NCBI GenBank assembly: GCA_027483065.1 | Contig: JAIXVI010000114.1 | Coordinates: 1-46,668, forward strand | DNA: 46,668 nucleotides | Source of the DNA: Planctomycetaceae bacterium | GTDB lineage: Bacteria; Planctomycetota; Phycisphaerae; Phycisphaerales; SM1A02 | Direction of reading: 5' to 3' | Shown here: positions 10,912 through 40,280 of the stretch, one piece after another | Layout of the letters: every line of letters begins with the position of its first letter | Numbering within the stretch: the stretch's first letter is position 1 | Position numbers and translations under genes: made by a program | The notes under the pieces: generated by a model | Database searches by the model: none | What the model was told of the DNA's origin: nothing | Seen by the model: only the letters and a program-made list of their open reading frames with translations

Positions 10912-11952
10912 TCACGCGAAGCGCCGCATCCACGTCTCAATGGCAAGCGGCAACGCCTCAGGTGCCTCCCCTGCTGTGAAGAGATGATTCGTATTTCCGA
11001 GCGCAAAGCACGTAACCAACGCCGAGTTCGGCACATCTTCGCTCTCGAACTCGCTCATCGTCATGCGCCGCACTTCAACATCCGCCGCAAGTGCGATACG
11101 AGCACACAACGTGTCGCAATTCGCACCGTCGGCAACAGCGAGGAATGTCGGAACCTGCACCTCTGTCAGGTCGATCCACGCATCCACGACATCACGCGCA
11201 ATTCCATCTGGCATGCGACCGCGATCGAACCATTCGTAGGTTCGTTGCGCGGCGCGGGCGACCGACGCAGATCCACGCCGCCGCGCGAGGCCGCGAAGCA
11301 CGCGCTCCGTAAACGCGCGCGGATTTCGCCATGTCACTTGACTCGCGACACGAGCATGAAGGAAATCTGGCTCAAGCAGAAGAAGTCCTGCACATCTTCG
11401 CCCCATGCGTCGCGCTGCGCGAACACTTACCACCGCACCAGCGCAAAGCCCGCCAAGCACAACACGATTCACCCCATGACGCGCACAGATCTGCTCAACC
11501 ACTTCCGCGAGTACGTCATCGAGCGGCGACTCTTGCGCCGCGATACGAAAGTCTTCAATACGCTTGAATGAATCACCAGTGGAGTCGCCAATGCCAGGAA
11601 AATCCATGCGAAAAACCGGATACCCACTCCGTGCAAGTTGGTCGGCGATTTGCCGTGAAAGATCGCTGTTTCCGGCCCGCGGCGCAGGCCCTGCATTCAC
11701 AAGTACAAGGGCAACGTCGGTTCGCTCCGCAACAATCGTCGGGCGGTGATACGTCGCGAGAATCGACTCATTGCGCCAACGATACGTCTCAAACATTCGT
11801 TGACCCGTTGATGTCGCAGCACACCCTGATGATGCATGCAAGACGGGTGTACGCGAGAATGATGCATGCGAAGATGATGCATGCGAAGGTCGTGCTTGCA
11901 CGAGTGGCTCAGTTTGAGCGCGCTGCGTCCATATTGTCGCATCCGGGTTCAT
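10912..11952 (-). CDS. Alpha/beta-hydrolase-fold protein with cysteine at the nucleophile elbow (hydrolase B)
   Basis: The last gene of the seven-gene operon, 346 residues. The start ATG at 11952 has GGGAG 6 nt upstream. The first 50 residues are low complexity and are encoded partly by a 15-bp repeat. The fold starts near residue 53 with MFETYRWRNESILATYHRP. The hydrolase core shows RMDFPGIGDSTGD (oxyanion/strand-4 region) and VVLGGLCAGAVVSV, where the usual G-x-S-x-G elbow has Cys170 instead of serine. An aspartate (VADGANCD) and a histidine (GNTNHLFTAG) stand at the expected acid and base positions. A Cys-His-Asp triad could catalyse acyl transfer or hydrolysis, as in dienelactone hydrolase. 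Resembles the hydrolases that accompany exosortase-A loci. Substrate unknown. Confidence 0.75.
   Translation of the reverse strand: MNPDATIWTQRAQTEPLVQARPSHASSSHASFSRTPVLHASSGCAATSTGQRMFETYRWRNESILATYHRPTIVAERTDVALVLVNAGPAPRAGNSDLSRQIADQLARSGYPVFRMDFPGIGDSTGDSFKRIEDFRIAAQESPLDDVLAEVVEQICARHGVNRVVLGGLCAGAVVSVRAARRMGRRCAGLLLLEPDFLHARVASQVTWRNPRAFTERVLRGLARRRGSASVARAAQRTYEWFDRGRMPDGIARDVVDAWIDLTEVQVPTFLAVADGANCDTLCARIALAADVEVRRMTMSEFESEDVPNSALVTCFALGNTNHLFTAGEAPEALPLAIETWMRRFA
11829..11888. repeat. 15-bp imperfect repeat in the hydrolase B N-terminus
   Basis: Three blocks built on atgatgcatgcgaag, two of them adjacent (11859-11888) and one separated by a diverged block. Each contains the palindromes ATGCAT and GCATGC. 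In the gene they encode repeated Ser-His-Ala-Ser runs. Confidence 0.7.
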
Positions 11953-11983
11953 TGGCATCTCCCTTCATGTGCGCATGGTTCCT

Positions 11984-12913
11984 TCATGCGAGCACGTTTG
12001 AAGTACGCACCTGTTCAAACCACGCTCCAAGCGCGTCGAACCAGTGGGCGTCCTGTGGAACAAGCTGAGGTGATGACTCCCAAAATCTTGGTGCATGTAT
12101 GACAAGTCGATGGGCCGTACTCGAACTGACGTCCTGAAGGCGTGGCTGCGCTGCTGATGCCGCAACGCCCTTGTCGGGAATACGCATGGCGGAGCCACGC
12201 AAATCCAACTGAAGCCACGGTCGCCCTTCGCCGGAATCGGGCATTCGAAACACGTGCTTCGCGGCCTCCGCAATGAAGCCAGGCTTCCAGAGATAACCAT
12301 CAACGCGCGCTTCTCGACCCGCTGCGATGGCTGCATATCCCGCGAACAATTCTGCGTGCGACGCCCCTAACGATTCTTCATGCCGCGCCTTTGCAGCATT
12401 TCCATGCACAAGATCAGCCACCAATGCTCGACGCGATGCATCACGCAAAAGCGACTGACCATCACCCTGTCCCATGAAGACCACTGCATCGCCACATCCC
12501 TCGGCAAACAGCTCGCTTGCAATGAGCGCGCCCACGCGCACACCCACCAACGCGGTTGTGAGACCCAATGGCGCGATGGTGTGCAGGTGTTGAACAACAC
12601 GCCGTGCATCTTCCGCCCACAAGCCGATCGTCGCTTCGTCGAAATTGCCTTCGCTCTCACCAAGACCACGATGGTCGTATCGGAACACTTCGTAGCCGCG
12701 ATCGGTGAGCGCACGCGAGAAATCAACGAGCGTTCGATAGGCGCGCTCGCGCTCAGCACCGATCGGCCCAATGAGCACGACCCGCAGTTGCGCAGGGTCC
12801 CGCGGACGGTGGTGGACATACGCAAGCCGCGCATCTTCGAGTACAGCAAAGCCGTGCTCCTCCGTTGCGCCATGAGTCCGCCCATGCACGATGGCGTGGC
12901 GTTCAAGTTCCAC
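11984..12913 (-). CDS. Alpha/beta-hydrolase-fold protein lacking the serine nucleophile (hydrolase A)
   Basis: About 309 residues of the alpha/beta-hydrolase fold, related to exosortase-A-associated hydrolases. Core motifs are VLIGPIGAERERAYR, FRYDHRGLGESEGNF and, at the elbow, TALVGVRVGALIASE. The nucleophile position is Arg126 rather than serine; I recall similar G-L-R-x-G elbows in this subfamily, so the change may be ancestral. A DGYLWKPGF segment replaces the usual late-strand motifs. I place the start at GTG 12913: AAGGGAG stands 8 nt upstream and the overlap with the preceding gene shrinks to 11 nt, whereas the ATG at 12988 would overlap it by 86 nt. Probably not a classical serine hydrolase; a binding or scaffold role is an inference. 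Confidence 0.72.
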   Translation of the reverse strand: MELERHAIVHGRTHGATEEHGFAVLEDARLAYVHHRPRDPAQLRVVLIGPIGAERERAYRTLVDFSRALTDRGYEVFRYDHRGLGESEGNFDEATIGLWAEDARRVVQHLHTIAPLGLTTALVGVRVGALIASELFAEGCGDAVVFMGQGDGQSLLRDASRRALVADLVHGNAAKARHEESLGASHAELFAGYAAIAAGREARVDGYLWKPGFIAEAAKHVFRMPDSGEGRPWLQLDLRGSAMRIPDKGVAASAAQPRLQDVSSSTAHRLVIHAPRFWESSPQLVPQDAHWFDALGAWFEQVRTSNVLA

Positions 12914-13898
12914 TGCGAGATCTCCCTTGTGCACCACCCCGCACATCCCCGCCACCAGTTTGAGCATTCGGCGGCGTGAATTCCGCATTTTCCGCGAGTT
13001 TCAGTAGGAGCGCGCGTGCAACCACAACTTGCCCAAGTTCGTTGAGATGGCCGCCATCCGACGTGTACTCCGCGCAAAGCGCTGGCCACGCCACGCCCGC
13101 GACGGTACTCGTCTTCGCAGAACCGTCGAGGGCTCGTGACTCAACCGCGGCGATATCGATGATCTGGCTCACCGGAAATCGAGCGCGCAGCAAGTCGTTG
13201 TATCGACCACGAATTGCATTCGCAGGCCCAGTGCCGTTGCCAACGAGTCGCTTTACCGCACCCTTTGCACCTTGATCGGCAGCCTTCAGCGGAACTGTTG
13301 CGTGCAACACACGCAACGTTGGTCGCGCACGTTTGATGCGCTCGACCATCGCAACGTATCGATCAAACAAACTCTGGGCGTTGGTCGATCCATCAATGTC
13401 TGCGTAACACAATTTGACGAACGCAATCTCAATCGCCTCTCCACCGGCGCCTACGACAAAGCGCTCAAATGCCTCGAACTTTGCGCGCGGATCACCATTT
13501 GGGCCCGCAGGTCCATGCACGAGTCCCGGTTCATCGAACGCACCACGCGCGTCGCCTTTCGCGTTCTCAGAAGACGCTGCAATTCGTCGCGTCGAGAGCG
13601 CGATTGTTGGACGCGCCCGCTGAATCTCTGCCAATCCGCGCATCATGTTGCCACCGACGGATTGATGCGCAAAGTAGATCCGTCGTGCACGGAGGGCTTT
13701 CCAGCGCTCTTCCGGCACGCGATCGATCTCATCCAATCCCACCTGCGCGACGATGTCGTCGCGGCGATCGTCACGCTGCGGCGATTTCGGATCCGGCGGC
13801 TCTGTCGCAACACCACTTGCCTGGCCAAGCGGAAGCAAACTCAAACCGACGACAGAACTCGCGAGCGACGCAAACGCAAATCGATGCAAGGATTTCAT
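12903..13898 (-). CDS. Exported SGNH-like protein, intact-motif paralogue
   Basis: A 331-residue exported protein. It has a signal peptide (MKSLHRFAFASLASSVVGLS, cleavage near the ASG stretch). After a charged linker comes IYFAHQSVGGNMMRGLAEI; Ser80 in HQSVG is in the position expected for a block-I nucleophile. Near the C-terminus SDGGHLNELG provides Asp281 and His284, spaced as in the D-x-x-H motif of SGNH enzymes. Between them are RVLHATVPLK and RGRYNDLLRARF. Family members of this H-Q-S-V-G type are, as far as I know, uncharacterised. It starts with an ATGA overlap to the NAD-synthase-like gene and has GGAGG 7 nt upstream. A diverged paralogue lies at 38983-40062. The last 25 residues are low complexity and overlap the next gene by 11 nt. 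Confidence 0.72.
   Translation of the reverse strand: MKSLHRFAFASLASSVVGLSLLPLGQASGVATEPPDPKSPQRDDRRDDIVAQVGLDEIDRVPEERWKALRARRIYFAHQSVGGNMMRGLAEIQRARPTIALSTRRIAASSENAKGDARGAFDEPGLVHGPAGPNGDPRAKFEAFERFVVGAGGEAIEIAFVKLCYADIDGSTNAQSLFDRYVAMVERIKRARPTLRVLHATVPLKAADQGAKGAVKRLVGNGTGPANAIRGRYNDLLRARFPVSQIIDIAAVESRALDGSAKTSTVAGVAWPALCAEYTSDGGHLNELGQVVVARALLLKLAENAEFTPPNAQTGGGDVRGGAQGRSRSGT
12922..12928 (-). promoter_or_regulatory. Shine-Dalgarno sequence that decides the start of hydrolase A
   Basis: AAGGGAG on the minus strand lies 8 nt before GTG 12913. No comparable site precedes the ATGs at 12988 or 12967; the ATG at 12946 has only a G-rich run. The site lies inside the end of the preceding SGNH-like gene, consistent with coupled translation. 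Confidence 0.65.
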
Positions 13899-15085
13899 GG
13901 GTTGGCCTCCTTCGCGGAGAGAAGTACTGATGTTTCGCCTTCGACGACAAGCGCGGATCCATCCAGTCGCGACGCAACGCGTCGCTTGAGATCGATGTCG
14001 CGATACACGCGCTCAACGGCGGCCGGCGTCATTGCGGTGATTTCACTCGCCCGAGTCGTCGACACTTGATGCATGTAGCACCACAGCACAAGATCGAGCG
14101 TTGCATATGGCAGCCCGAAGTAGAACTCTTGCTGCGATTGTGGAAGGCTGTAGGTATCTGTGGTTGGAATCTGCCCTGTGATCGACGCGGGAAGGCCTAG
14201 AAATCGGCCAAGGGCGAACACCTGCGACTTGTAGAGATGCGCGATTGGCTTGAGATCGGCAAGTCCATCGCCGCCACGCACGAAGAAGCCAAGCGCATGT
14301 TCGAGGAGATTTGGCGTGCCAAGCACCGCGCGATTCGAAGCATCGGCAGCTGTGTATTCGACGGTCTTCCGGACGCGCTGTTTCAAATTCGTCGCAGCAA
14401 CAACCTCAAGGTAGATGTCAACCGGGAGTCGCGCGACAGCTGTGGCTCCAGCGCGCGCCGAGAGTGATGCAACCACGTGAAAGTGATTGACGCGATCACT
14501 CTCCGCTACATCATTCGCAATCGTGATCTTGAAGCGATCACCGGGTCGAAATGCAGGTAGAACACGGGAGATGGCGACATCGCGGCGCCGATAGCAGCCA
14601 AAGGCTTCAAGCATGGGCGTGATGTCGACAACTTCCGGCGCAACTCCAGCGATGTGACAGGCTGCATGGCCGAGTTCAAGGCTTGCAGGCGAACTTTCAC
14701 GCTCGGGCATCAGAATGGCGGTCACTCGATCATGTCCGAGCGCTCGCGCGGCGAGTACCACGGAGACCGAGGAATCAATTCCCCCGCTGACGCCGAGAAC
14801 CACACCACGACGTCGAAGTTTCATGCCGACGGCATCACGAATCGAGCGTTCGATCCGCTCACATTCGAGGCCCGGATCAATCTCGAGCACCGACTTTTTC
14901 TCAATCGACACATCCGTACTCAATGTACCTCCTCTGCGCTGCATGAGCGATTCGCTTTCATGCGATTCAACCAATGCCGACTTTGCGAGGACACTCGTCC
15001 GTATGTCGAATGAATCCAACGCCTCTGGTGGAGCAGACGCAGGGAGTGAGTGCTGTGCGATCGAATTGAAAAAGGCTTGCGTCAT
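13895..15085 (-). CDS. NAD-synthase-like ATP pyrophosphatase of a specialised subfamily
   Basis: A 396-residue N-type ATP pyrophosphatase related to NadE. The P-loop GVSGGIDSS (residues 98-106) is intact, as is GDGLADLKPIAHLYKSQVF, the counterpart of the NadE segment before the substrate loop. The substrate loop differs: where NadE has P-S-A-x-L and a Q-T-D-E run, this protein has IPTTDTYSLPQSQQEFYFGL (306-325). About 90 residues before the P-loop are an extension without glutaminase features. NadE-like proteins with such loops are known beside amidotransferases in glycan loci, so it probably adenylates a carboxylate or carbonyl of a sugar or acyl substrate rather than deamido-NAD. It starts by ATGA overlap behind GGAGG in the amidotransferase tail. 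The function is an inference. Confidence 0.8.
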   Translation of the reverse strand: MTQAFFNSIAQHSLPASAPPEALDSFDIRTSVLAKSALVESHESESLMQRRGGTLSTDVSIEKKSVLEIDPGLECERIERSIRDAVGMKLRRRGVVLGVSGGIDSSVSVVLAARALGHDRVTAILMPERESSPASLELGHAACHIAGVAPEVVDITPMLEAFGCYRRRDVAISRVLPAFRPGDRFKITIANDVAESDRVNHFHVVASLSARAGATAVARLPVDIYLEVVAATNLKQRVRKTVEYTAADASNRAVLGTPNLLEHALGFFVRGGDGLADLKPIAHLYKSQVFALGRFLGLPASITGQIPTTDTYSLPQSQQEFYFGLPYATLDLVLWCYMHQVSTTRASEITAMTPAAVERVYRDIDLKRRVASRLDGSALVVEGETSVLLSAKEANP

Positions 15086-17298
15086 CGTTCATCCTCCGAG
15101 CATGCAAAGCACTCCTCCGAGCACGCGCATGCGTCGTGCTTGAAGATCGAGATTGCGCTCTCACGTTGATCGACGGCATTCGCGAAACTCGCATGCTCGA
15201 CGAATCGTTCGTGCCAGAGCACAAGCGTTAAAAGCCCAAATGCAGCCATTTCTTCGCGTTCTGAAAGTGGCGTGGTTGCGCTCGCCGTGAAGGCACGTTG
15301 CGCGAGGCGCGTCGCCGCGGGGCCATCGATGAGTGGATGTGCTCGCAAACGCGTGTCCGAAAGTGCATCGCGCACAAAGTCCGGCGCATCGACGCCGAAG
15401 AACGCCCTTTGCATCGGTGATCGATACGGCCACTTCGGCCGCTCCGCGATTTCTCGCGGAAGAAGTCGGCGCGCGATCCGGCGGAGAAGCGGCTTCTCTC
15501 GCAATCCGACAAGACGCTCTTCTGAACGAAGTCGTGCTGCCTCTGCCGCGAGCGCTCCATCAAGAAAGGGATAGCGCCCTTCGACGCCATTCGCCATCAA
15601 CATCCGATCGCCCTGACTCGAGAGGAGATACGGCACCATGAACGAAGCGATCTCTAACTCCTGCGCGCGTCCAAGATCATCGAGATCGCGCCACGCCGGA
15701 GGCATCGCAGACTCAACGCACCGACAGAACGCTTCCTGGTCAAGTGACGCACGAATGTCTTCCGACAGAAATCGCACCATCCACGCACCGCTCTGCCAAC
15801 GCAGGAGATGCGACGCAAACGGATCGGTGTCGCCGGATCCAGAACGTTGCAACGCGTGCTCTTGCCCATCCTCGCGCAGATGCGCGGACGAATCGCGCCG
15901 ATGCGCATAAGCCTCGCCCGAGCTCAGAAATGCGCTCCACATGGCAATGCCGCCGTCGGTTCGTGTGGCATGTTGCCGATGAAGCCGCGATGCCAGTGCC
16001 TGTCTCATTTCGCTTGCGGGATCACGGGCGAGATACGCGCGCAGACGAGCCTCTTTGAAAATGTCATATCCACCGAAGAGTTCGTCCGCGCCTTCGCCAG
16101 TCAGAACCACGCGCATCCCCTGTTCGCGCACAAACTCCGAGAGGAGCAACATCGGAATGGGACCTGCTCGTAGGAGCGGCGATTCTGTGTGATTGATCGT
16201 GCGTTCGAGTGATTCCACGAGGCGATCGGTTCCCACGGCAATTTCACGATGATCGGTTCCAAGGGCCTGCGCGACCATGTGCTGCGCGGCGCCCTCGTCA
16301 AATCCCCGATCAAAATCACGTTCACCGCGAAATCGAATGGAGAACGTCGTTGGCGGGCTGCTACCGGCGCGCGCTCGTTCCTCCACGATCAATGCGGTCA
16401 GCAGCGATGAATCCAGTCCTCCCGAGAGATATGCCCCAACAGGAATATCTGAGCGAAGCCGTTGCTGCACAGCGTGGCGAAGTCGCTCGGTGACCCGCGC
16501 CTCGCTCGAAGAGCTTTCTCGAGAGTTGTTCGATACCGCCAGGAACTCCAGAGAATCAGATGCATCGCGAAGTCGCGCATAGGTTCGCCCGACAACCGAA
16601 CACGATCCCTTGCCGAGCGAGTCTTGTCGTTCCCGCCGCCAAACAGGCGAACCAATCGCGTCGAGTGAAATCCGCACACGCTGACCTGGCGCGACAGAAT
16701 CCACTCCTTCAAACACGCTTCTCGTACCCGGGACCGACCAATTTCGAAACACCGCGTTGATCGCGATGCGATCGACGCAAGGTGCGACGCGCCCCGATGC
16801 GAAGATTGCCTTTGCTTCTGATGCAAAGATCAAGGCATTCGGAAGTCGGGCGACAAAGAGCGGGCAAATGCCGGCACGATCGCGCACGAGATACATGCTT
16901 CGGGCAAAGCGATCCCAAAGCGCAAGTGCGAACTGCCCTTCGAATCGACGCCACGCGTCATCGCCCCAACGTTCGTAGGCCGCGAGAACAACTTCCGTGT
17001 CACTCTTCGTCGAAAACACACGACCATCCGACTCGAGTTCGCGACGGAGCTCGATGTGGTTGAAAACCTCACCGTTGTAGACAATCGTCGTTCCACGCGC
17101 GGGATTCGAGAAAGGCTGCGCACCTCCCTCGCGATCGATCACTGCAAGTCGCGTGTGCGCGAGACCAACGCGACCTTCCACCAGAATGCCGCGTCCGTCT
17201 GGTCCGCGATGCGCGAGCGAGTTCGCCATACGCGAGCACTCCTCTCGCGATGGCGGTGGCGCGTCGAGGCCCGCAACAACGCCAGCGAAACCGCACAT
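15082..17298 (-). CDS. Class II glutamine amidotransferase / asparagine synthase-like protein
   Basis: A 738-residue two-domain enzyme. The N-terminal glutaminase domain begins MCGFAGVV with the catalytic Cys2, followed by HRGPDGRG, YNGEVFNH and RDRAGICPLF. The synthase domain has the ATP loop LSGGLDSSLL (291-300) and TGEGADELFGGYDIF. Glutamine-derived ammonia would be delivered to an adenylated acceptor. It is longer than housekeeping AsnB (about 550-650), with a serine-rich insert at 240-270 and an insert near 440-490. It resembles the amidotransferases of exosortase-A loci, which are thought to act on exopolysaccharide rather than aspartate. The tail is cysteine-rich (CACSEECFACSED) and its codons duplicate the motif TGCTCGGAGGA, one copy being the ribosome site of the next gene. 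The start is 1 nt after the ligase stop. Confidence 0.87.
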   Translation of the reverse strand: MCGFAGVVAGLDAPPPSREECSRMANSLAHRGPDGRGILVEGRVGLAHTRLAVIDREGGAQPFSNPARGTTIVYNGEVFNHIELRRELESDGRVFSTKSDTEVVLAAYERWGDDAWRRFEGQFALALWDRFARSMYLVRDRAGICPLFVARLPNALIFASEAKAIFASGRVAPCVDRIAINAVFRNWSVPGTRSVFEGVDSVAPGQRVRISLDAIGSPVWRRERQDSLGKGSCSVVGRTYARLRDASDSLEFLAVSNNSRESSSSEARVTERLRHAVQQRLRSDIPVGAYLSGGLDSSLLTALIVEERARAGSSPPTTFSIRFRGERDFDRGFDEGAAQHMVAQALGTDHREIAVGTDRLVESLERTINHTESPLLRAGPIPMLLLSEFVREQGMRVVLTGEGADELFGGYDIFKEARLRAYLARDPASEMRQALASRLHRQHATRTDGGIAMWSAFLSSGEAYAHRRDSSAHLREDGQEHALQRSGSGDTDPFASHLLRWQSGAWMVRFLSEDIRASLDQEAFCRCVESAMPPAWRDLDDLGRAQELEIASFMVPYLLSSQGDRMLMANGVEGRYPFLDGALAAEAARLRSEERLVGLREKPLLRRIARRLLPREIAERPKWPYRSPMQRAFFGVDAPDFVRDALSDTRLRAHPLIDGPAATRLAQRAFTASATTPLSEREEMAAFGLLTLVLWHERFVEHASFANAVDQRESAISIFKHDACACSEECFACSEDER

Positions 17299-17299
17299 T

Positions 17300-18892
17300 T
17301 CAAACCCCCGCTCCGACGAGTGCTCGTCGAATCACTTTGCCATTTGCAGTACGCGGAATCTCCCGACGGAACTCGATGAATCGAGGTTGGAGCGCTGGCT
17401 CAAGCAACGCCCGACAGTGCGCGCGCAGCGTGCGCTCGTCGACGGTCGCATTCGCCTCGAGTACGACCACTGCATGAATCGCCGTGCCATCTTCTTCGTG
17501 CGCGACTCCCGTGACGGCTGCGTCGACGACGCCATCGAGCGATGCGAGCACGCACTCAATCGCCATCGGAGCGACTTTCTCACCGCGACATTTGAAGATC
17601 TCATCTTCTCGCCCGATGAAGGTCAGCAGGCCGTTTCGATCCATGCGAAAGCGATCTCCGGTACGCAGCACTCGCTCCGCAGAACACGCCTCTGCCATCG
17701 GTGAAGGAATGAACTTCTCGGCGGTTTCCTGGGGGCGTCGCCAATAGCCGCGAGCGACATTCGCGCCGCGCACAACAAGTTCTCCCTCGCTTCCCGCAGG
17801 CAACCGTCGACCTCGCGCATCGATGAGAAACAGTTCGCAGTTTGGGATCGCTGTTCCAACCGAGTCTGGATGAGTTGCAACGAGCCGAGGATCAAGCGTC
17901 GCCGCCCGCGAGCATTCGGTCTGCCCGTACATGAGATGAAGCGCGACATGTGGCAACGACTGCGTACATCGCAATGCTTGCGCGGGCGGAAGTGACGCTG
18001 CGGCACACGTTACTGCACGAAGATTGGACAGATCCAGCTCGCTTTGCGAAAGCGTGGCGAGCATGCGAGTGATCATCGTCGGAACGGCGACGATCACCGA
18101 TACGCGATGCCGCGCCATGCGACGCATGGCGTCGAACGGAAACGCAAAGCTTCGTTCGAGAACCACCGTCGCGCCGCTTCGTAACGCGGTCCACAATTGA
18201 AGGAATCCGTAGCTGTAGGAGATCGGTATCGCAAGCGAAACGACGTCGAAATCACGAGTATTCGTATCACTGAGATACTCCGCGACCGCAGCGGTCGTGT
18301 TCAAGAGGTTCGCATGCGCGAGCATGACGCCCTTCGGCTCACCCGTCGTGCCCGACGTGTAGATGATCGCCGCAAGATCCGCGTCGATACAGCCAACTTC
18401 ACGCGCCGTCACTTTGGATGTCGAGGCTGCGTGACCAAAATCAAGCGGTACACCCAACGGCCGAGAGAAACTGTCATCGAGCGCGAACTCCACCCAGCGC
18501 GCATCAAGACCGTCGCTCTCTTCTGCGATCGATGCGCGCAACGACACAAGCGTGACACGCGGTGCGACGACTGCTTGCGGATCGCAGTCCGCGAGAATTG
18601 CGCGAAGCCGGGGCATACGCGTGTCCGCAGGAATTGGCACCAGCACTGCGCCTGTGCGAACGACGGCGAGATACGCGACCACCGACTCAATCGCATTCGG
18701 TGCGACCACCGCAACACGATCGCCTCGGCAAACACCTGCACGTTGCAAGGCAATCGCCACACGCCGCGAAGCATCTTCGAGATGCTTCCAATCGATCGTT
18801 CGATCACCATCGATCAACGCGGCGCGCGCGACCCCACAGGCCGAAGCGAACTCCTTCACGCGTTCAAGGATGACATCATCGAGTAACTGCAC
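17300..18892 (-). CDS. AMP-forming acyl/aminoacyl ligase (ANL superfamily), exosortase-A-associated type
   Basis: A 530-residue adenylate-forming enzyme that should activate a carboxylic or amino acid and load it on the neighbouring carrier protein. Core motifs are complete: YTSGTTGEPKGVM (178-190), MYGQTECSRA, RTGDRFRMDRNG, IGREDEIFKCRGEKV and the C-terminal RTANGKVIRRAL, with Lys519 as the A10 lysine. No condensation or reductase domain is attached. It is closest in style to the ligase that accompanies exosortase-A clusters, and to stand-alone amino-acid ligases such as DltA; the substrate cannot be read by eye. The start is GTG 18892 with GAGG 6 nt upstream, inside the 3-prime end of the carrier gene (17-nt overlap). 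Confidence 0.87.
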   Translation of the reverse strand: MQLLDDVILERVKEFASACGVARAALIDGDRTIDWKHLEDASRRVAIALQRAGVCRGDRVAVVAPNAIESVVAYLAVVRTGAVLVPIPADTRMPRLRAILADCDPQAVVAPRVTLVSLRASIAEESDGLDARWVEFALDDSFSRPLGVPLDFGHAASTSKVTAREVGCIDADLAAIIYTSGTTGEPKGVMLAHANLLNTTAAVAEYLSDTNTRDFDVVSLAIPISYSYGFLQLWTALRSGATVVLERSFAFPFDAMRRMARHRVSVIVAVPTMITRMLATLSQSELDLSNLRAVTCAAASLPPAQALRCTQSLPHVALHLMYGQTECSRAATLDPRLVATHPDSVGTAIPNCELFLIDARGRRLPAGSEGELVVRGANVARGYWRRPQETAEKFIPSPMAEACSAERVLRTGDRFRMDRNGLLTFIGREDEIFKCRGEKVAPMAIECVLASLDGVVDAAVTGVAHEEDGTAIHAVVVLEANATVDERTLRAHCRALLEPALQPRFIEFRREIPRTANGKVIRRALVGAGV

Positions 18893-19259
18893 GGAGTGCC
18901 TCGCTCGAAGAGGGAGCCTTCTCGAACTTCAACTTGCTCGAAACCTCAACCGTCAGTGTGGTTTTGCTCACGATTTCACTCGCAGCATTCACCGCTACCC
19001 GCTTTCGCGCGACGAACGAAGCGATGCGTTCAATCGAATCGAGATTCGCGGGAACAAGTTCGTTGTCCGCGACTTCGATTCCGAACTGCTCTTCGAGGAA
19101 AAGCACGAGTTCCATCGCCCCGGTCGAGTCGAGAATGCCTTCGCCGAGAAGCGACGATCGAACATCGATCGACGCGTCTGGATCAAAGAGAAATCGCTCT
19201 GCGAGAAAACGGCGAATAGGTTCAGCATCCGCGGGGGGTGCGCCACGCTCTTCCTGCAT
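18876..19259 (-). CDS. Acyl carrier protein, first gene of the seven-gene operon
   Basis: A 127-residue carrier protein. The phosphopantetheine site is GILDSTGAMELVLFLEEQFG, with Ser45 as attachment residue, and the flanking helices (IRRFLAERFLFDPDASI and LDSIERIASFVARKR) match the four-helix fold. A C-terminal extension of about 35 residues (with SKTTLTVEVSSKLKFEKAPS) is not part of the usual domain. I choose ATG 19259, with GGAG 6 nt upstream; longer readings from 19382 add basic, repeat-like sequence. It directly precedes the AMP-forming ligase, so the two likely work as a loading pair. An operon promoter should lie in the 368 nt upstream. Confidence 0.85.
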   Translation of the reverse strand: MQEERGAPPADAEPIRRFLAERFLFDPDASIDVRSSLLGEGILDSTGAMELVLFLEEQFGIEVADNELVPANLDSIERIASFVARKRVAVNAASEIVSKTTLTVEVSSKLKFEKAPSSSEALRAVTR

Positions 19260-19627: not shown

Positions 19628-21409
19628 TCACGCGCCCGGCACGTACGACACCGGTGCATCGGTGCCAAGCGGCAGACCGATCCAGTACCAGAGCAAGAGG
19701 AACGCCGTCCAGACGATTCCGAAGACGAGCGAGTACGGCAGCATGAGCGTGATCAAGCTGCCAAGGCCCGCATTTTTCGAATACCGCTGCAGCGCCACGA
19801 GAATGATGAGCAGGTAACTGTTCAGCGGCGTGATGATGTTGACGACGCTATCGCCGATGCGGTACGCCGCCGTCGTGAGTTCGGGGCTCATGCCGACCAT
19901 CATGAACATCGGGATGAAGATCGGCGCGAGTACGCCGAACTTGCTGAGCATGCCGCTCATGACGAAGTCGCCGCCGATCACGAGAAGCACGAACAGCACG
20001 ATGAGGAGCGGAATCGGCAAATCCGCTTGGAAGAGGAATGATCCGCCCGCGTACGCGAGCATGCGATCGAGGCCCGTGTACTGGAAGTAGTTGACGAACT
20101 GACCCATGAAGAACGCAATCGCGAGGACGGGCACGATCGAACGAATGCCGTGGTAAATGCCGTCGATGAAGTCGGCTTGTCGGCGCAGCGTGCCCGTGAT
20201 CCAGCCGTACGCCATACCGGGCAAGAGGAAGACGAAGAGAATGAGCGGCACGATGACTTGCGACCAGCGATCGCCGGCGCGCTCGCCAGGCGCGGGCGCT
20301 CCGGTCGCAAGCGTCGGTTGACCCGTGCCCGCCAGCGGCCAACCAGGAACGAGTACCGCGGCCGCGAAGAGTCCAAGCACGAGGAGCGCAACGACACCCG
20401 CCACCGCGAGACCGCGCTTTTCATCGGGTTTCAGCGCGAGTTCGGAGAGCGACGGCATGTCGTCGAACTTCGCCGTTCCGCCGAGTCGCTTGAGCCGAGG
20501 TTCGACAATCCAGTCGGTCACGAACCAGCCGGCGAACATGATGACGATGCTGCTCAACGCCTTGAAGTACAAATTGTGCGTTGGGTCGACCGCGTGGTAA
20601 CTCGGGTCGACGATGTGCGCCGACGTTGTCGCGACGCCCGCGAGAAAGCCGTCGCCCGCATTTGGGAAGAAGCCGCCGCCGAAGCCGCCCGCAACACCCG
20701 CAAACGCCGCCGCGAGGCCCGCCACCGGAGGACGATTCATGGCGAGGTAGAGCGCCGCCGCGAGTGGAGGAAGGATGATGTACCCCGCGTCCGAGGCGAT
20801 GGCAGCGTTCGCACCGATCAGAACGATCGTTGGGGTGAGGAGTTTGCGCGGCGTGATGAGCGCTAACCAACGCATGAGCGCACTGAAGAGACCAAATTTC
20901 TCCGCAAGACCAATGCCGAGCATCGAGACGAAGACAAGGCCGAGCGCGGGCAGCGCGGTGAAGTTCCGCACCATCGACGAAAGCATCCAGTAGATGCCTT
21001 CGCTCGTGAGGAGACTCTTCGCGACGAGTTCAACAGGCTTGCCGTCTTTGTCGGTCTCACCAACGAGCGTGACGATCGGCTTCCCCGACTCATCGAGTTT
21101 CGGAACAAGCACAGGCTTGCCGTCGGCATCGAGAACGGGCGCGCCTTCGCGGTCGACCTTCTCGACGAGCTCTGCCTTCGGCTTGATCGGTTGAATGCGC
21201 CAATCGGCGGCCACGCCGAGTGCGGACACCACGATGACCACCGCGGACAGAATCGCGAAGATCAGCGCAGGCTCTGGCAGCGCGTTCCCGATGCGTTCGA
21301 TCCGATCGAACCAGCCGCCGGGCCGATCGGTCGGTGGCTGATGCGCGGAAGGATCGCCGGAGGATCCGTTTGGTGTGGAGGAGGCGTTCGACGGAGAGGC
21401 GTTCGACAT
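19628..21409 (-). CDS. AbgT-family transporter (p-aminobenzoyl-glutamate transporter family)
   Basis: A 593-residue membrane protein of the AbgT family, whose members move p-aminobenzoyl-glutamate or export antimetabolites. Typical parts are GWFDRIERIGNALPEPALIF at the N-terminus, SDAGYIILPPLAAALYLAM, FAGVAGGFGGGFFPNAGDGF, and near the end YRIGDSVVNIITPLNSYLLI. A periplasmic loop with Lys/Asp-rich sequence (residues about 85-130) separates the first helices. I use ATG 21409 (MSNASPSNASS); the reading from 21514 adds 35 residues without hydrophobic or family features. No aminobenzoyl-glutamate hydrolase gene is adjacent, so the substrate is open. Confidence 0.9.
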   Translation of the reverse strand: MSNASPSNASSTPNGSSGDPSAHQPPTDRPGGWFDRIERIGNALPEPALIFAILSAVVIVVSALGVAADWRIQPIKPKAELVEKVDREGAPVLDADGKPVLVPKLDESGKPIVTLVGETDKDGKPVELVAKSLLTSEGIYWMLSSMVRNFTALPALGLVFVSMLGIGLAEKFGLFSALMRWLALITPRKLLTPTIVLIGANAAIASDAGYIILPPLAAALYLAMNRPPVAGLAAAFAGVAGGFGGGFFPNAGDGFLAGVATTSAHIVDPSYHAVDPTHNLYFKALSSIVIMFAGWFVTDWIVEPRLKRLGGTAKFDDMPSLSELALKPDEKRGLAVAGVVALLVLGLFAAAVLVPGWPLAGTGQPTLATGAPAPGERAGDRWSQVIVPLILFVFLLPGMAYGWITGTLRRQADFIDGIYHGIRSIVPVLAIAFFMGQFVNYFQYTGLDRMLAYAGGSFLFQADLPIPLLIVLFVLLVIGGDFVMSGMLSKFGVLAPIFIPMFMMVGMSPELTTAAYRIGDSVVNIITPLNSYLLIILVALQRYSKNAGLGSLITLMLPYSLVFGIVWTAFLLLWYWIGLPLGTDAPVSYVPGA

Positions 21410-21663
21410 CGTGCGATCCAATTCGCCGGACCTCCACCAACTGGCGGGGAAGTCGGGCGCGGAATACTCGCACGGATTCGAGCTTTGTGAAAGACCTCGG
21501 GCGCGATCGCGCACTGATTGCGCCCGCGGCGTAAAAGCTCACGAGCCGAACTTCAAACACCATTTGCGGGAATTGCGGGAATCTCGGGAATCGCGGGAAT
21601 CGCGGGAATCGCTCGAACTTCTTCAGCCCAACCCGGTCGCCCGCCCCGCGCAAGGCTTCGCCT
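21410..21663. other. Leader of the AbgT-type gene with a 9-bp repeat array
   Basis: These 254 nt hold no supported gene. The array at 21566-21610 consists of five units of gcgggaatc or a close variant. Elsewhere the sequence has no recognised site. The leader of the AbgT-type gene has no strong Shine-Dalgarno sequence at the chosen ATG. Confidence 0.5.
21566..21610. repeat. 9-bp tandem repeat (5 copies), unit gcgggaatc
   Basis: Five consecutive 9-bp units with two single-base variants lie between the 483-residue protein gene and the AbgT-type gene, both on the minus strand. Confidence 0.9.
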
Positions 21664-26177: not shown

Positions 26178-26195
26178 GGCGCGCGGTCACGCGCC
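26178..26195. terminator. GC-rich hairpin between convergent genes
   Basis: The sequence ggcgcg-cggtca-cgcgcc, a 6-bp stem with a 6-nt loop, starts 2 nt after the DinB-like stop codon and overlaps the last codons of the opposing gene. No T-tract on either strand. Confidence 0.35.
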
Positions 26196-27977
26196 CCATC
26201 GGGCGAGCAGCACAGCCAAGTCGGCCGCGCCCACCGAGCCGTCGTAGTTCAAATCCGCACTCGGAAGCGTCGTTCCCCAAGCGCCCAAAAGGATCGCGAG
26301 GTCGCCTGCGTCGATTGCACCATCGCCGTTGATATCCGGCGATGCAGGCGGCGGGCAGAGATCTGGATAGCCGTCTTGGTCGCTGTCGGTGCAGTCGGTT
26401 CCTGCGCCGTTCCACGGAATGCCTAGCACCGCTGCATCGACGTCGGTGATCTGTACACAGCCGCCGTACGTGCATGTCGAGCCGAGCGTACGTACACAAT
26501 CAGCCCACGTTGCTCGCGCGCAACCCGCATCGGGAATCGACAAGCCATGGCAGAGTTCGCCGACGAATGCCTCCGCAAGCATGCGCTGCGCATGTGGCTT
26601 CAGGTGCGCCGCATCGAAGAGGTACGGCCGACGATCAAGCCATCGGTACTCCTCCGCGACGATGCGTGGCAAGTTCAACGCGAGGACATTCGCATCTTGC
26701 AGCGCGATCTCATGGGCCACCACGGGCATGAGATCCAAGATCGGAAACCCGTCCACGGGTCCGCTGCGCAAATCGCTCGCGAGAATGACGGGGAACGTCG
26801 GATCTCCAGTCTCGGCACGTATCCAGGCGACGGTCTGCAGCACACGTGATCGCCATTCGTCGAGGCTAATTCCATACGCTGCGTCATTCGCGCCAAAGTG
26901 CAACACCGCGACGCTCGGATCCATCGCGCGCAGAAACGGGCCGCTTTGCGCATGCTCGCCGAGCACGTCTTGAAGTCGCATTCCACCGCGCGCAAACGAT
27001 TGGACCACGACGCCACGATGTGCGCTCAGACTTCGAAAACGAACACCCGCAACTTCAGTGCCGAGTGACTTCCCGTATTTTTTTGTGTTCTGCGTTTTGC
27101 CGCTCGCAGTTCCGCCATTCGTTCCGTCGTTCTTCGCATCGTTGCTCGGAATCGCGCCACTGAGATTGAGCTGCACGTGCCGCTTGCCGCCGAAGTCGAG
27201 CGTAGGCGTTTCAAGCCAATGAAAACTTCCCGCAGCCGCTTTCGCTGGCATGGGAAGCACCCCACTCTGCGCCACCGCAGCACCAGCGCCCGCCACGCTG
27301 CCATCGCTTGGCGTATTCGACCATTGCACCGCCGTCGGACTTGTACTGCCGATCGCGAGGATCTCACCGACAAACGGCCCTTGCGTATCGAACCATGGAC
27401 CGCCGACCAACACTGGATCTGCCGCAGCCGACGCATCGTGAAGAAGCATCGCACGAAAGGCCCCAAGGGCCGTGCCGTCGTCCGCGAGCAGTCGTCGTAC
27501 GACAACACCTGGGAGAAGCGACGTACTCGCAACACCCGTCGGCAAACTCGCGGCACTCGTCGTACTTGAGGCCAACCAGTGCGGGGTTCCTTGCATACCC
27601 ACATTGGTAAAGAGCATGGTCTCACCTGCGGGTCCGAAGACCTTCGCGAAACGCGCGTTGAGATGCGGAAGGTAGAGTGAGCCAAAGCCACCCGGCATCG
27701 TTTCCTGCGAATCGCCAAGCACAAGGACGCGAACGATCGACTCATCCGACGTTTCAAGGAGCGTGCGAAATCGCTCGGGTGATTGAACACTCACGCGAGG
27801 CACCGAAAGAAACGGCGGATCCTCATCGCCGCGAGCGACTTCAGCCGCCGCACCGATCGTGGCGACCGCGATGAATACAGGCGCTGTCTGATGACGCACC
27901 CAACGCGCGATCTCGCCGAGCGCTCGCCGAGGCTCAGAGACGAGGGCACCCAGATCTTGGAAACACCGCAGAGTCAC
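26187..27977 (-). CDS. Secreted SGNH/GDSL hydrolase with a dockerin-like tail
   Basis: A secreted esterase-like protein. Motifs of SGNH hydrolases are all present: LVLGDSQETMPGG (Ser90 in the longest reading), HFGANDAAYG for block III and FDAAHLKPHA for block V. Between blocks I and III is an inserted beta-rich module of about 200 residues. The C-terminus has a four-cysteine segment (CARATWADCVRTLGSTCTYG) and then two calcium-loop repeats, DINGDGAIDAGDLAILLGAW and ADLNYDGSVGAADLAVLLAR. The longest reading starts at GTG 27977. A GTG at 27896 would give a cleaner signal peptide (MRHQTAPVFIAVATIGAAAE) and is my preferred alternative. It could deacetylate a glycan, which is an inference. It is not closely similar to the two HQSVG-type proteins. 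Confidence 0.82.
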   Translation of the reverse strand: MTLRCFQDLGALVSEPRRALGEIARWVRHQTAPVFIAVATIGAAAEVARGDEDPPFLSVPRVSVQSPERFRTLLETSDESIVRVLVLGDSQETMPGGFGSLYLPHLNARFAKVFGPAGETMLFTNVGMQGTPHWLASSTTSAASLPTGVASTSLLPGVVVRRLLADDGTALGAFRAMLLHDASAAADPVLVGGPWFDTQGPFVGEILAIGSTSPTAVQWSNTPSDGSVAGAGAAVAQSGVLPMPAKAAAGSFHWLETPTLDFGGKRHVQLNLSGAIPSNDAKNDGTNGGTASGKTQNTKKYGKSLGTEVAGVRFRSLSAHRGVVVQSFARGGMRLQDVLGEHAQSGPFLRAMDPSVAVLHFGANDAAYGISLDEWRSRVLQTVAWIRAETGDPTFPVILASDLRSGPVDGFPILDLMPVVAHEIALQDANVLALNLPRIVAEEYRWLDRRPYLFDAAHLKPHAQRMLAEAFVGELCHGLSIPDAGCARATWADCVRTLGSTCTYGGCVQITDVDAAVLGIPWNGAGTDCTDSDQDGYPDLCPPPASPDINGDGAIDAGDLAILLGAWGTTLPSADLNYDGSVGAADLAVLLARWGA

Positions 27978-30212: not shown

Positions 30213-31415
30213 ATGAAATCCGCGCGTACTTCAATTTCTCCAACAGCGAACGCCGAACGCAACGACCGTCGTCGCATCGCAGTGGTGGCAACTGTGCCGT
30301 ACACCGTCAACATGTTCCTCGCGCCGCATCTCGCGGCACTCGCGCGGCGACATGATGTGACGATTCTCGCCAACGGCCGCGTCGAGGAGATTGCACCATC
30401 CTTGCGTGAGCGCTGCGATTTCATTCAGATCGGTATCGCACGCGAGATCGCGCCACTCACGGATCTCCGCACGCTCGCCGAATTGCGTCAGCACTTTCAA
30501 GTTGGTGCGTTCGACCTCGTCCTCTCGATGACGCCGAAGGCTGGGCTTCTCGCGATGGTGACCGCGCGCATCGTCGGCGTGCCCACACGGGTGCACTGGT
30601 TTACAGGCCAAGTGTGGGCGACGCGGCGAGGACTTGCGCGACGCGCACTGAAGCTCCTCGATGGAGTGACGGCGAACTGTGCGACGCATCTCCTCTCTGA
30701 TAGCCCGTCGCAACGCGCATTTCTCGATGAAGAAGGCGTGATTCCCGCCGCGCGCGTCGAGGTTCTTGCCGACGGTTCCGCGTGCGGCGTTGATGCGCGA
30801 CGCTTCAAGCCCGACCGCGCGGCGCGCAACGCGATTCGTCGGCAGCTTCGTATTCCTGATGATGCATTTGTGGCGCTGTTCCTCGGACGACTCAATCGCG
30901 ACAAGGGCATTCCTGAACTTGCTGAGGCGTTTGCGCAGATCGCGCCCGCACATCCGTCGATGCATCTCGTGCTCGCAGGCCCAGACGAAGGCGAGATGAT
31001 CGCACACACCGCGTCGACGCTCGCTCCGTTCGAAGGACGCGTCCATCGCACAGGTTTCGTGTCGAACCCCGAGGCATTCATGGCCGCCGCCGATCTCTTC
31101 GTGTTGCCGAGTCATCGCGAGAGTTTTGGGCTCTCTGTGATTGAAGCGGCGGCGTGTGGAATTCCCGCTGTTGGCTGCGCGATCTACGGATTATCTGATG
31201 CGATCGTCGACGGTGAAACGGGGCTTCTTGTTCCGAAGGGTGACGCAAACGCGCTTGCAAGCGCGATCACGAAGTTCGCTGAAGATTCCACTTTGCGTAC
31301 ACGCCTCGGCACGAATGCACGCGCGCGGGTCTTGGCGAAGTTCTCGCAAGATCGCCTCGTCGATGCGTTTCTCTCGTCGATCGAACGTTCGTTACACTCG
31401 CAAACGTCATGCTGA
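30213..31415 (+). CDS. Glycosyltransferase, GT-B fold, family 4 type
   Basis: A 400-residue retaining-type glycosyltransferase, cytoplasmic face of the membrane. The N-terminal domain opens with IAVVATVPYTVNMFLAPHLA and the loop TPKAGLLAMVTARIVGVPTR; this style resembles transferases of O-antigen loci (WbpH/PglA-like). The C-terminal domain has VALFLGRLNRDKGIPELAEA and the donor motif LPSHRESFGLSVIEAAACG with the E-x7-E pair. It is the first gene of a three-gene plus-strand operon and overlaps the epimerase gene by 7 nt. No ribosome site is evident at ATG 30213. The donor and acceptor sugars cannot be told from the sequence. Confidence 0.85.
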   Translation: MKSARTSISPTANAERNDRRRIAVVATVPYTVNMFLAPHLAALARRHDVTILANGRVEEIAPSLRERCDFIQIGIAREIAPLTDLRTLAELRQHFQVGAFDLVLSMTPKAGLLAMVTARIVGVPTRVHWFTGQVWATRRGLARRALKLLDGVTANCATHLLSDSPSQRAFLDEEGVIPAARVEVLADGSACGVDARRFKPDRAARNAIRRQLRIPDDAFVALFLGRLNRDKGIPELAEAFAQIAPAHPSMHLVLAGPDEGEMIAHTASTLAPFEGRVHRTGFVSNPEAFMAAADLFVLPSHRESFGLSVIEAAACGIPAVGCAIYGLSDAIVDGETGLLVPKGDANALASAITKFAEDSTLRTRLGTNARARVLAKFSQDRLVDAFLSSIERSLHSQTSC

Positions 31416-32377
31416 GCGATCGGACTCGAGCACCGCACGCAGTGGTCACGGGGGCCTCGGGCTACCTCGGTCGGCATCTCGTGTCAGCACTCGAAGCGCA
31501 CGGTTGGCGCGTCACCCGTTGCCTCCGCGATGCACGGGGTGTGCCAAACGCGGTGTCGGTGCCAGACCTCGACGATCGCTCGCTTGCAGCGATTCCTTGG
31601 CCTGCCGACACGGTCTTTCACTTGGCAGGACTTGCGCATCGCTTTCCGCCCAATGTTCCAAGCGAAGCCGAGTTTGAACGCGTGAATGCGCACGGGACCG
31701 GCGCGGTCGCGCATGCGGCAAAAAGTCGCGCGCGGCGTTTCGTTTTTGCAAGTTCGATCGCTGCGATTGGCGCGCGCGGAGAGCCACCGAGCACCGCGTA
31801 CGGCCGAAGCAAGTTGCATGGCGAACACGCCGTGCTCGAGGCGCTCGCTGGCTCGACGACCGAAGCGGTGATCCTTCGTTTCCCCGCGATTTATGGCGCT
31901 GGTGCGCCCGGTGCGGTCTCACAACTCGCGCGCTGGATTCTGCGCGGACGACCGCTCCCCTCCTGCGCCCGAACGACGCGTCGCAGCATGATCGCGGTCG
32001 AGAACGCCGTCGATGCATGCATTTTTTCCGCGGAAAGCGCGCGGCTCGCAGGAGTGACCGCGGTTCCAACCGATCGCGAAACGCTCAACGTACTTGACGC
32101 AGCGATGACGATTGCGCGTGGCGGCGGCACGCGTGTCCGCACAATTCCGATGCCGCGCTTTTCGCTCTCACTTCTCGGGGCGATTGGCTCGCGATGCGGA
32201 ATCACGGCGATGGCGTCGGCCGAGCGCTTGCTCGAGTCGACCGAAGTCACCGATGCAACACTCGCGGAGATCGCCGGATGGAATCCGCCCATTTCCGCGC
32301 AGCGCGCACTCGCTGAGCTGGGCGCAGCACTTGTGCGCGAAGCGACTCGCGACCACGCCTCGGAGCGTGCCGCATGA
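31409..32377 (+). CDS. NAD-dependent sugar epimerase/reductase (extended SDR)
   Basis: A 322-residue extended short-chain dehydrogenase. The NAD-binding motif is VVTGASGYLGRHLV, the catalytic serine region FVFASSIAAIG, and the active-site pair YGRSKLHGE (Tyr and Lys). In such loci, genes between a glycosyltransferase and a WbpL-type transferase often encode the 4-keto reductase/epimerase (WbpK/FnlB-like) that finishes UDP-FucNAc or UDP-QuiNAc. That assignment rests on context and general similarity. The gene overlaps both neighbours (7 nt and an ATGA overlap), so the three are translated together. Confidence 0.85.
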   Translation: MLSDRTRAPHAVVTGASGYLGRHLVSALEAHGWRVTRCLRDARGVPNAVSVPDLDDRSLAAIPWPADTVFHLAGLAHRFPPNVPSEAEFERVNAHGTGAVAHAAKSRARRFVFASSIAAIGARGEPPSTAYGRSKLHGEHAVLEALAGSTTEAVILRFPAIYGAGAPGAVSQLARWILRGRPLPSCARTTRRSMIAVENAVDACIFSAESARLAGVTAVPTDRETLNVLDAAMTIARGGGTRVRTIPMPRFSLSLLGAIGSRCGITAMASAERLLESTEVTDATLAEIAGWNPPISAQRALAELGAALVREATRDHASERAA

Positions 32378-33540
32378 CCACCACACTGTGCACGATGGCC
32401 TCGATCGCGTCGACCGCGACGATTCCTGATCCCGCACTCATCGGTGGCGCGTTCGTTGCCACGCTTGTTGGAACGCTGGTCTTCCGCCGCGTACTCGTGC
32501 GAGCAGCGATGCTCGACCATCCCAACGAACGCAGTTCCCACGACGTTCCCGTGCCGCGTGGCGGCGGCGTTGTCTTCGTCGCGGCGTGCGCGCTCGCGCT
32601 TCTCCTACTCATCACGCGCGGCGCACTGCATCCGGTGATGTGGGCGACGTTTGCCGGACTCCTTGCGATCGCACTCATCGGCTTCATCGATGATCGCCGA
32701 CATGTTGGTGCCGCAACGCGCCTTGCGTTTCATCTCTCTGGTTCGGCCGCGGCCGTTTTCGCCGCCACGTTCGGAAGTGCTGCGTGGCTTCCGCCGGAAA
32801 TCACCGCGCATCCGATCGTGCCCGTCGCTGGCGTGTTGCTGCTTGCGGTCGCGAGTGCGTGGATGGTGAACCTCGTCAATTTTGTCGATGGCATCGACGG
32901 GCTCGCAGCGCTCGGAGGCGCGACGATACTTGCGGCTGCAGCGCTGCTCCCGGCGGTTCTCCCCTTCGAGAGCGCCCTTCCCGGCGGCGAAACACCTGCG
33001 CTTCGCGCGGACAGCGAAGCGCTTCGTGCCGACAGCGAAGCGCTCCGTGCCCTTGCGTTGGCATGCGCGGCCGCCGTTGGTGCATTCGGTATCGTCAACA
33101 TCTCACGCTGGCGGATTTTCATGGGCGATGCGGGAAGCGGCGCGCTCGGCCTTCTCATCGCCTTCACGCTTGTGGCGCTTGCGATGGGCCGCGGACTCGC
33201 ACCGCTCGCCGCGCTCGCACTTCCAGCGGTGTTCGTCGCGGATACGACAACGACATTGGCCATTCGCGTTTGGCGCCGCGAGCATCCTGCGCGCGCGCAT
33301 CGAACGCACGCCTATCAACGCCTCGTTCGGCGCGGTTGGCCGCATCTTGCCGTTTCAGGGACGTATCTCGCGGTGTTTGCCGCGACGGCCTTGCCCGTCG
33401 CGATCTACGCGCAATCAGGCGGCGCTTATGCGGGTGCCGCGGTGGTGGTGCTCTATGTGACGCTCGCGATCGCCGCCATACTCCTCGGCGCGGGCCGCGA
33501 GCCGCGCACCACCCAAATCAATGCACCTGTAACTGCGTGA
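32374..33540 (+). CDS. Polyprenyl-phosphate N-acetylhexosamine-1-phosphate transferase (WbpL/WecA type)
   Basis: A 388-residue polytopic enzyme that starts glycan assembly by moving a sugar phosphate to undecaprenyl phosphate. About ten helices are predicted. Family motifs are LDHPNERSSHDVPVPRGGG, ALIGFIDDRRHV, NLVNFVDGIDGLA, WRIFMGDAGSGALG and ARAHRTHAYQRLVRRGW. The last is the H-x-x-H-x-Y-Q-R form that I associate with WbpL-like rather than MraY transferases, pointing to UDP-FucNAc or UDP-QuiNAc. A 21-bp repeat adds the run ALRADSEALRADSEALR in the loop at about residues 209-226, which family members normally lack. ATGA overlap with the epimerase gene. Confidence 0.88.
   Translation: MTTTLCTMASIASTATIPDPALIGGAFVATLVGTLVFRRVLVRAAMLDHPNERSSHDVPVPRGGGVVFVAACALALLLLITRGALHPVMWATFAGLLAIALIGFIDDRRHVGAATRLAFHLSGSAAAVFAATFGSAAWLPPEITAHPIVPVAGVLLLAVASAWMVNLVNFVDGIDGLAALGGATILAAAALLPAVLPFESALPGGETPALRADSEALRADSEALRALALACAAAVGAFGIVNISRWRIFMGDAGSGALGLLIAFTLVALAMGRGLAPLAALALPAVFVADTTTTLAIRVWRREHPARAHRTHAYQRLVRRGWPHLAVSGTYLAVFAATALPVAIYAQSGGAYAGAAVVVLYVTLAIAAILLGAGREPRTTQINAPVTA
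33001..33050 (+). repeat. 21-bp in-frame tandem repeat in the WbpL-type gene
   Basis: Two copies of a 21-bp unit (33001-33021 and 33022-33042) and a third partial one encode LRADSEA heptads. The copies differ at two bases, suggesting some age. Because 21 is a multiple of three, copy changes would keep the frame. Confidence 0.85.
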
Positions 33541-33547
33541 GAAGCAA

Positions 33548-33563
33548 GCGCGATTTCTCGCGC
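33548..33563. terminator. GC-rich hairpin between convergent genes
   Basis: The sequence gcgcga-tttc-tcgcgc, a 6-bp stem with a 4-nt loop, begins 8 nt after the stop codon at 33540. No T-tract follows. Confidence 0.35.
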
Positions 33564-33566
33564 AGT

Positions 33567-33602
33567 CCGCGCGCTCGACCGCGCGCTCGACCGCGCGCTC
33601 AC
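33567..33602. repeat. 12-bp tandem repeat (3 copies), unit ccgcgcgctcga
   Basis: Three copies, the last differing in two bases, fill most of the 66-nt gap between two convergent genes. Each contains the palindrome GCGCGC. Confidence 0.9.
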
Positions 33603-33606
33603 ACGC

Positions 33607-35508: not shown

Positions 35509-35705
35509 GGCGAGACAAACTGAAACCGAACTTGACGAAGGCACCGGCGCGAAGCCCGTGCGCTGACCTCGAAGTCGTAACGGGCTCAGCCACTCGATCA
35601 CCTACGTACGTGAACGAGCACGGCGCGGAACCCGAGTACCCCGATGTGCGTTCGAAGTATACACGAGCCCCATTTCGTGAAACTTGCGTGGATTGGCGCG
35701 AAGTA

Positions 35706-40062: not shown

Positions 40063-40142
40063 TTCTCTCTCCGTTCTGCGGCGTCGCCGCGTTCGAGTTC
40101 GATGGCAACACAAACCATCGCGCGAGCCTAGAGAGACCGTGC

Positions 40143-40185: not shown

Positions 40186-40280
40186 AATCGCGACAGAATC
40201 CCGCCGCAACACTTCCCCCTACCGTGTCTCCGAATCATCCATCGACAGCGAAACTTCAACAGCCAAAGTGTTCGACGTCA

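Follow-up and report, generated by a model that had tools for sequence, protein, structure and literature searches.

The window analyzed here is a 46,668-nucleotide stretch of contig JAIXVI010000114.1 from the genome of a Planctomycetaceae bacterium (GCA_027483065.1, Phycisphaerales), and it contains seven successive open frames on the minus strand, from 19259 to 10912, which we treat as one operon (Table 1). They encode a carrier protein (ACP), an AMP-forming ligase (LIG), an asparagine-synthase-type amidotransferase (ASNB), a NadE-like protein (NADE), the so-called HQSVG protein (SGNH) and two alpha/beta-hydrolase-fold proteins (HYD2 and HYD1); family scans bore out the names given to them in an earlier note that was made from the sequence alone. 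The frames are tightly packed, with a 17-nt overlap between ACP and LIG, a 1-nt gap between LIG and ASNB, and ATGA junctions on both sides of NADE. The last two junctions described in that note, an 11-nt overlap and a 31-nt gap, depend on the start codons chosen: the longest open reading frame (ORF) of HYD2 begins at 12988 and overlaps SGNH by 86 nt, the 11-nt overlap requires a GTG start at 12913, and the gap between HYD2 and HYD1 is 25 or 31 nt according to the methionine chosen for HYD1. As a sigma-70 and terminator consensus scan gave nothing above shuffled sequences, we infer from the overlaps and the conserved order that the seven genes are transcribed as one unit.

Table 1. Genes of the seven-gene operon in the window, in the order of transcription
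Gene	Product	Coordinates	Strand	Evidence
ACP	Dedicated carrier protein	18876..19259	-	PF00550, 24.9 bits over cut-off
LIG	AMP-forming acyl/aminoacyl ligase	17300..18892	-	Best NCBIfam model TIGR03098, 371 bits (cut-off 592)
ASNB	Glutamine-hydrolysing asparagine-synthase-type amidotransferase	15082..17298	-	TIGR01536, 422 bits (cut-off 267)
NADE	Putative NadE-like single-domain PP-loop amide synthase	13895..15085	-	NF002048/PRK00876, 397 bits (cut-off 313)
SGNH	HQSVG protein, probably an exported esterase/acyltransferase	12903..13898	-	Invariant residues; AlphaFold2 model
HYD2	Alpha/beta-hydrolase-fold protein, TIGR03101-like	11984..12988 (start maybe 12913)	-	61.6 bits (cut-off 203)
HYD1	Alpha/beta-hydrolase-fold protein, TIGR03100-like	10912..11958	-	48.7 bits (cut-off 168)

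The operon is more than a chance grouping, because its order is kept in relatives, as the earlier note had expected. The congener G444 has all seven genes in identical order (44-72% identity), and the exact order ACP-LIG-ASNB-NADE-SGNH-HYD2-HYD1 is found in the Phycisphaerales metagenome-assembled genome SJ456 (L085), with identities of 65, 47, 47, 56, 40, 38 and 45%, respectively. A second congener (G446, the same record as L084) retains ASNB-NADE-SGNH-HYD2-HYD1 up to the end of its contig (53-77% identity). ORF starts in these other genomes were picked by rule, and the genes flanking the operon are partly common to the window and its congeners. An AbgT-family transporter gene lies upstream of the operon (19628-21514, minus strand), and one is also found near the operon of G444 (L072). 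The distribution of the operon is patchy: the NadE-like gene is present in three of the seven genomes of the genus and missing from the 60 family genomes that were sampled, the congener G045 among them. A clean empty site was not found in G445, where the ROK gene has a different neighbour.

The first four genes have a far wider distribution. Among 84,980 species genomes, profile scanning detected at least 573 NadE-like relatives, the best 80 of which were used, and 102 neighbourhoods of NadE-like genes, plasmid and phylum loci included, were scored with hidden Markov models (HMMs) built from clusters. Of these neighbourhoods, 59 extended at least 6 kb in each direction from the NadE-like gene; ASNB, LIG and ACP were all present in 48 of them and all absent from five, and none of the three was observed in any of 26 control loci around canonical NadE. 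These co-occurrence tests, like all p values below, take no account of phylogeny, and module loci served to train the marker HMMs. The module loci come from Planctomycetota, Pseudomonadota (Alpha, Beta and Gamma), Myxococcota, Acidobacteriota, Nitrospirota and Verrucomicrobiota, and the conserved module of ACP, LIG, ASNB and NADE spans at least six phyla. The supposition that the NadE-like and HQSVG proteins mark a one-off version is accordingly not supported: the former belongs to the widespread four-gene core, and the latter occurs in 17 of the 102 NadE-like loci. No description of the module was found in the open-access PMC literature, and the NadE studies found there cover nicotinamide mononucleotide synthetase and NadE1/2(Gln), not the NF002048 branch; the widespread module is, as far as that literature shows, undescribed.

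By score and by fold, NADE is a member of NF002048/PRK00876, a family named "NAD(+) synthase" whose cut-off it passes. Its AlphaFold2 model (pLDDT 84) has the NadE fold according to Foldseek, with template modelling scores by target of 0.84-0.87 for the two best matches, and alignments to solved NadE structures revealed that the PP-loop and the core residues for ATP and pyrophosphate are kept. These features, together with the housekeeping surroundings of some family members that lack the module, would fit a housekeeping or backup NAD synthase in a loosely grouped operon. However, the canonical NadE of the source genome is encoded elsewhere (G000:C253), and a second NadE-family gene was found in this genome and in each of the 25 further whole genomes tested, among them those whose NadE-like copy lacks the module (this second gene being partial or long-type in G110, G418 and two myxobacteria). 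In addition, the association with the module is specific to the NadE-like family as compared with the canonical NadE controls, and the gene is missing from most of the related genomes counted above. The housekeeping reading was therefore rejected, being already largely refuted and very improbable, and the NadE-like enzyme is almost certainly not the NAD synthase of the cell, nor is it the sole copy that the earlier note had allowed for. The protein lacks a glutaminase domain and differs from canonical NadE in an additional ~58-residue segment (~164-221) and in a PTTDTYS loop in place of PSA(D/G)LW. Both segment and loop are shared by module-less NF002048 members, so they alone are no proof of a new substrate. 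Such copies without the module were observed in L097, L100, L113, L118, L133, L091 and L040, in genomes that also have a canonical NadE, and some adjoin PFK, Pta/Ack, Rrf2 or IF2/ThiN genes.

The catalytic residues of the other three core proteins are also intact. ACP has a DSTG motif with the phosphopantetheine Ser45; D44 and S45 are invariant among 61 module ACPs, and T46 and G47 are kept in 97%. In ASNB, the glutaminase Cys2 (present in 93% of the module alignment) and the synthetase motif SGGLDSS (S292-S297 conserved) are retained. Its Cys-rich C-terminal tail (15082-15150, minus strand, ACACSEECFACSEDER) is genus-specific, being variable in G446 and G444 and absent from L085. The ligase resembles adenylation domains of nonribosomal peptide synthetases (NRPS), and its motif ISYSYG puts a Ser at the position equivalent to D235 in NRPS adenylation numbering, as assigned by motif; Asp is found there in 26 of 69 module ligases, and Ser in the window, G444 and L085. 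Because Ser replaces the amino-acid-type Asp, the substrate of these three ligases probably lacks the usual alpha-amino group, and the alpha-amino acid among the loads once envisaged is disfavoured for the window copy. Neither enzyme is the only one of its kind, since the source genome contains five other AMP-ligase hits and four further full-size asparagine-synthase genes, and on the latter ground a housekeeping role for ASNB was rejected.

A link to methyltransferases bears on the product. PrmC methylates glutamine side-chain amides, and PrmC/HemK-type methyltransferases were observed in 12 of 83 module loci; the NPPY motif is present in 13 of the 14 members of the PrmC-type cluster (one of them a fragment, from L032), and one member passes the PrmC model. 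All 12 ligases of these loci have Asp in an FDYG motif, compared with 14 of 57 others (p = 1e-6), and the difference persists after thinning at 60% identity (4/4 versus 7/32, p = 0.006). An amide product is thus supported, because members of this amide-N-methylating family accompany only Asp-type ligases, which hints that this subtype loads an amino-acid-like group that ends up as an amide. Of the two products suggested in the earlier note, an amide formed on a carrier-bound group is plausible, whereas an amidine has no specific support. In Sinorhizobium meliloti, a GNAT-like and PrmC-like pair (L032:23274-24781) lies ~10 kb from the four-gene module, and the corresponding pair in Mesorhizobium ciceri (L033) adjoins it.

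The downstream genes would supply the transfer steps. In alignments, HYD1 always has GLC[AGS][GA] and a late His, with GLCAG and hence a Cys nucleophile in the window, and HYD2 has Arg or Gln at the nucleophile position (GVRVG in the window). The Cys-nucleophile alpha/beta fold recalls polyhydroxyalkanoate synthase, that is, acyl transfer, and HYD1 is a probable acyl-transfer or off-loading enzyme with HYD2 as a probably non-catalytic partner; natural fusions of the two (L130:17651-19582 and L045:3537-5441) suggest that they form one complex. The HQSVG protein matched no Pfam or NCBIfam family, and its N-terminal hydrophobic stretch was recognized by eye. Ser80, Asp281 and His284 are invariant among its homologues and form a putative triad. 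Its AlphaFold2 model (pLDDT 84) matches PatB, platelet-activating factor acetylhydrolase and sialate O-acetylesterase, with Z up to 15 against natural GDSL enzymes, and the predicted fold and the Ser, Asp and His residues place it in the SGNH hydrolase superfamily. Compared with PatB (7tjb), sialate O-acetylesterase (6njc) and a lipopolysaccharide acetyltransferase domain (6se1), it has the same fold and carries its conserved Ser, Asp and His within the blocks where they would be expected, but HQS occupies the GDS block and the identity is 10-20%. Within 6 kb of the core, 31 of the 83 module loci have a GNAT gene and 14 have SGNH, and no locus has both (p = 7e-4), suggesting that the two are alternative transfer routes. 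A hexapeptide transferase accompanies SGNH in nine of those 14 loci, as against five of the 69 other module loci. Elsewhere in the window, a distant HQSVG paralogue (38983-40212, minus strand; 37% identity) has HGP for HQS and has lost the nucleophile Ser; it adjoins a response regulator and a histidine kinase, in a neighbourhood partly common to G045 (L075). A GDSL-like protein with a dockerin type I domain (26187-27977, minus strand) is found near the HQSVG paralogue in G045, too.

Comparison with known systems points to surface polysaccharides. The accessory set of exosortase A (XrtA/EpsH) comprises a ligase (TIGR03098), hydrolases 1 and 2 (TIGR03100 and TIGR03101), an amidotransferase (TIGR03108) and an ACP, and the kinship with these exopolysaccharide (EPS) companions that the earlier note had proposed holds: TIGR03098 is the best model of the ligase, which adjoins an ACP, and the GLC and GxRxG signatures of the hydrolase pair, derived in this analysis, recur in L239 and L240, where hydrolase 1 exceeds the TIGR03100 cut-off (GxRxG in HYD2; WGLCGGA in HYD1 of L240). 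The operon differs from this set in that its ligase, HYD1, HYD2 and ASNB score below the respective cut-offs (371/592, 49/168, 62/203 and 311/817 bits), in its NadE-like and HQSVG proteins, and in having neither exosortase nor decarboxylase. The pyridoxal-phosphate decarboxylase (TIGR03099) is indeed missing among the seven operon genes, the rest of the genome not having been searched. The exosortase is likewise absent from the operon, but not from the genome, which has two (PF09721 matched only on C250 and C146, not on C145, the contig of the window), along with three PEP-CTERM matches over the cut-off and weaker ones, all off the window contig.

The EPS context is more direct in other phyla. 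In Azospirillum EPS loci, the order is glycosyltransferases, deacetylase, ACP, LIG, ASNB, NADE and GNAT. Exosortase W was detected in L095, L103, L135 and L145, from Nitrospirota and other loci (563 bits over 425 for the L145 protein), and L103 was found to encode an XrtA-type deacetylase (TIGR03006) and FemAB (TIGR03019). A single EPS locus unites all seven protein families of the window operon: on contig C3 of Nitrospira G455, the four core genes, SGNH and HYD2/HYD1 lie within ~19 kb, together with exosortase W, FemAB-type genes and a deacetylase. With kinship ignored and HMMs trained on module loci, EPS markers were found in 21 of 52 module loci versus two of 26 canonical-NadE controls (p = 0.003). 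These loci make an envelope-glycan role the favoured one, and it is somewhat more likely than not that an acyl group bearing an amide is built on the operon's own carrier protein and then attached to a glycan of the envelope or of an exopolysaccharide. Several observations weigh against this: 31 of the 52 module loci have no EPS marker in the stretch covered; no glycosyltransferase lies inside the operon, and the nearest recognized glycan genes are ~11 kb away; some SGNH homologues seem to have no signal; and the statistics draw on the best relatives, treated as unrelated. Moreover, in Sinorhizobium and several other lineages the four genes occur by themselves, and a glycan acceptor is therefore no universal feature. 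The distant glycan genes of the window (30213-35601) encode a glycosyltransferase, an epimerase, a MraY/WecA-like membrane protein (recognized by eye) and a CapD-type Polysacc_synt_2 protein.

The stand-alone operons, on pSymB of S. meliloti and in plasmid records of Mesorhizobium and Shinella, would be explained if the module yielded a diffusible small molecule or a modified lipid, that is, an amide-containing acyl or aminoacyl compound released from the carrier, with its placement among EPS genes incidental. The NRPS-like ligase fits this explanation, as does the best NCBIfam model of ACP, the ornithine-lipid ACP (48 bits, under the cut-off). We consider it rather unlikely, however, as no exporter or condensation domain recurs among the neighbours, the module is linked in several phyla with EPS genes, exosortase W and FemAB, and the hydrolase pair matches the exosortase-A companions.

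On the favoured glycan reading, the ligase would adenylate a carboxylic acid, probably no ordinary alpha-amino acid here, and load it onto Ser45 of ACP; ASNB, drawing its nitrogen from glutamine, and the NadE-like PP-loop enzyme would turn carboxylates of the acid or of the acceptor into amides; the Cys of HYD1, with HYD2 as non-catalytic partner, would take the group off the carrier; and the probably exported SGNH protein would transfer or trim acyl esters on the finished glycan. The analysis itself establishes the unit and its conservation, the four-gene core, the intact catalytic residues, the separation from NAD synthesis, the Cys and Arg signatures and the SGNH fold of the model; all of these chemical steps, the sequence in which the two amidations would take place, the acceptor and the location are inferences. 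The pathway logic resembles that of butirosin side-chain assembly by BtrI/BtrJ/BtrK, in which a stand-alone ligase charges a dedicated carrier and the load is modified and then moved to an amino sugar; two amidating enzymes may act here where a decarboxylase acts there. Alternatively, ASNB and the NadE-like enzyme could amidate uronic acids of nucleotide sugars to uronamides, with ACP and ligase acylating the same sugar separately. The carboxylates on which NadE enzymes act belong to dinucleotides, and the NadE-like protein retains the catalytic core motifs; furthermore, biofilm mutants of Rubrivivax hit XrtA-type EPS clusters that carry AsnB homologues annotated wbpS (PMC3684757). Nevertheless, the nearly fixed co-occurrence of the four genes, stand-alone Sinorhizobium included, favours a single pathway, and we regard separate amidation and acylation as improbable.

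These results suggest that the common "NAD(+) synthase" annotation is functionally wrong, at least for module-linked members of the family. Exosortase-linked "hydrolases 1 and 2" gain testable roles, the former as an acyltransferase with a Cys nucleophile and the latter as its inactive partner. More broadly, we tentatively propose that a large branch of the NAD synthase family, annotated as NAD(+) synthase in hundreds of genomes from many phyla, may have been repurposed with AsnB, an adenylating ligase and a carrier protein into an undescribed pathway that forms amides on carrier-bound acids destined for bacterial surface glycans; its transferases (GNAT, SGNH/hexapeptide or the Cys-hydrolase pair) would be interchangeable and N-methylation optional. 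The module is present in S. meliloti and Azospirillum, where its knock-out is feasible.

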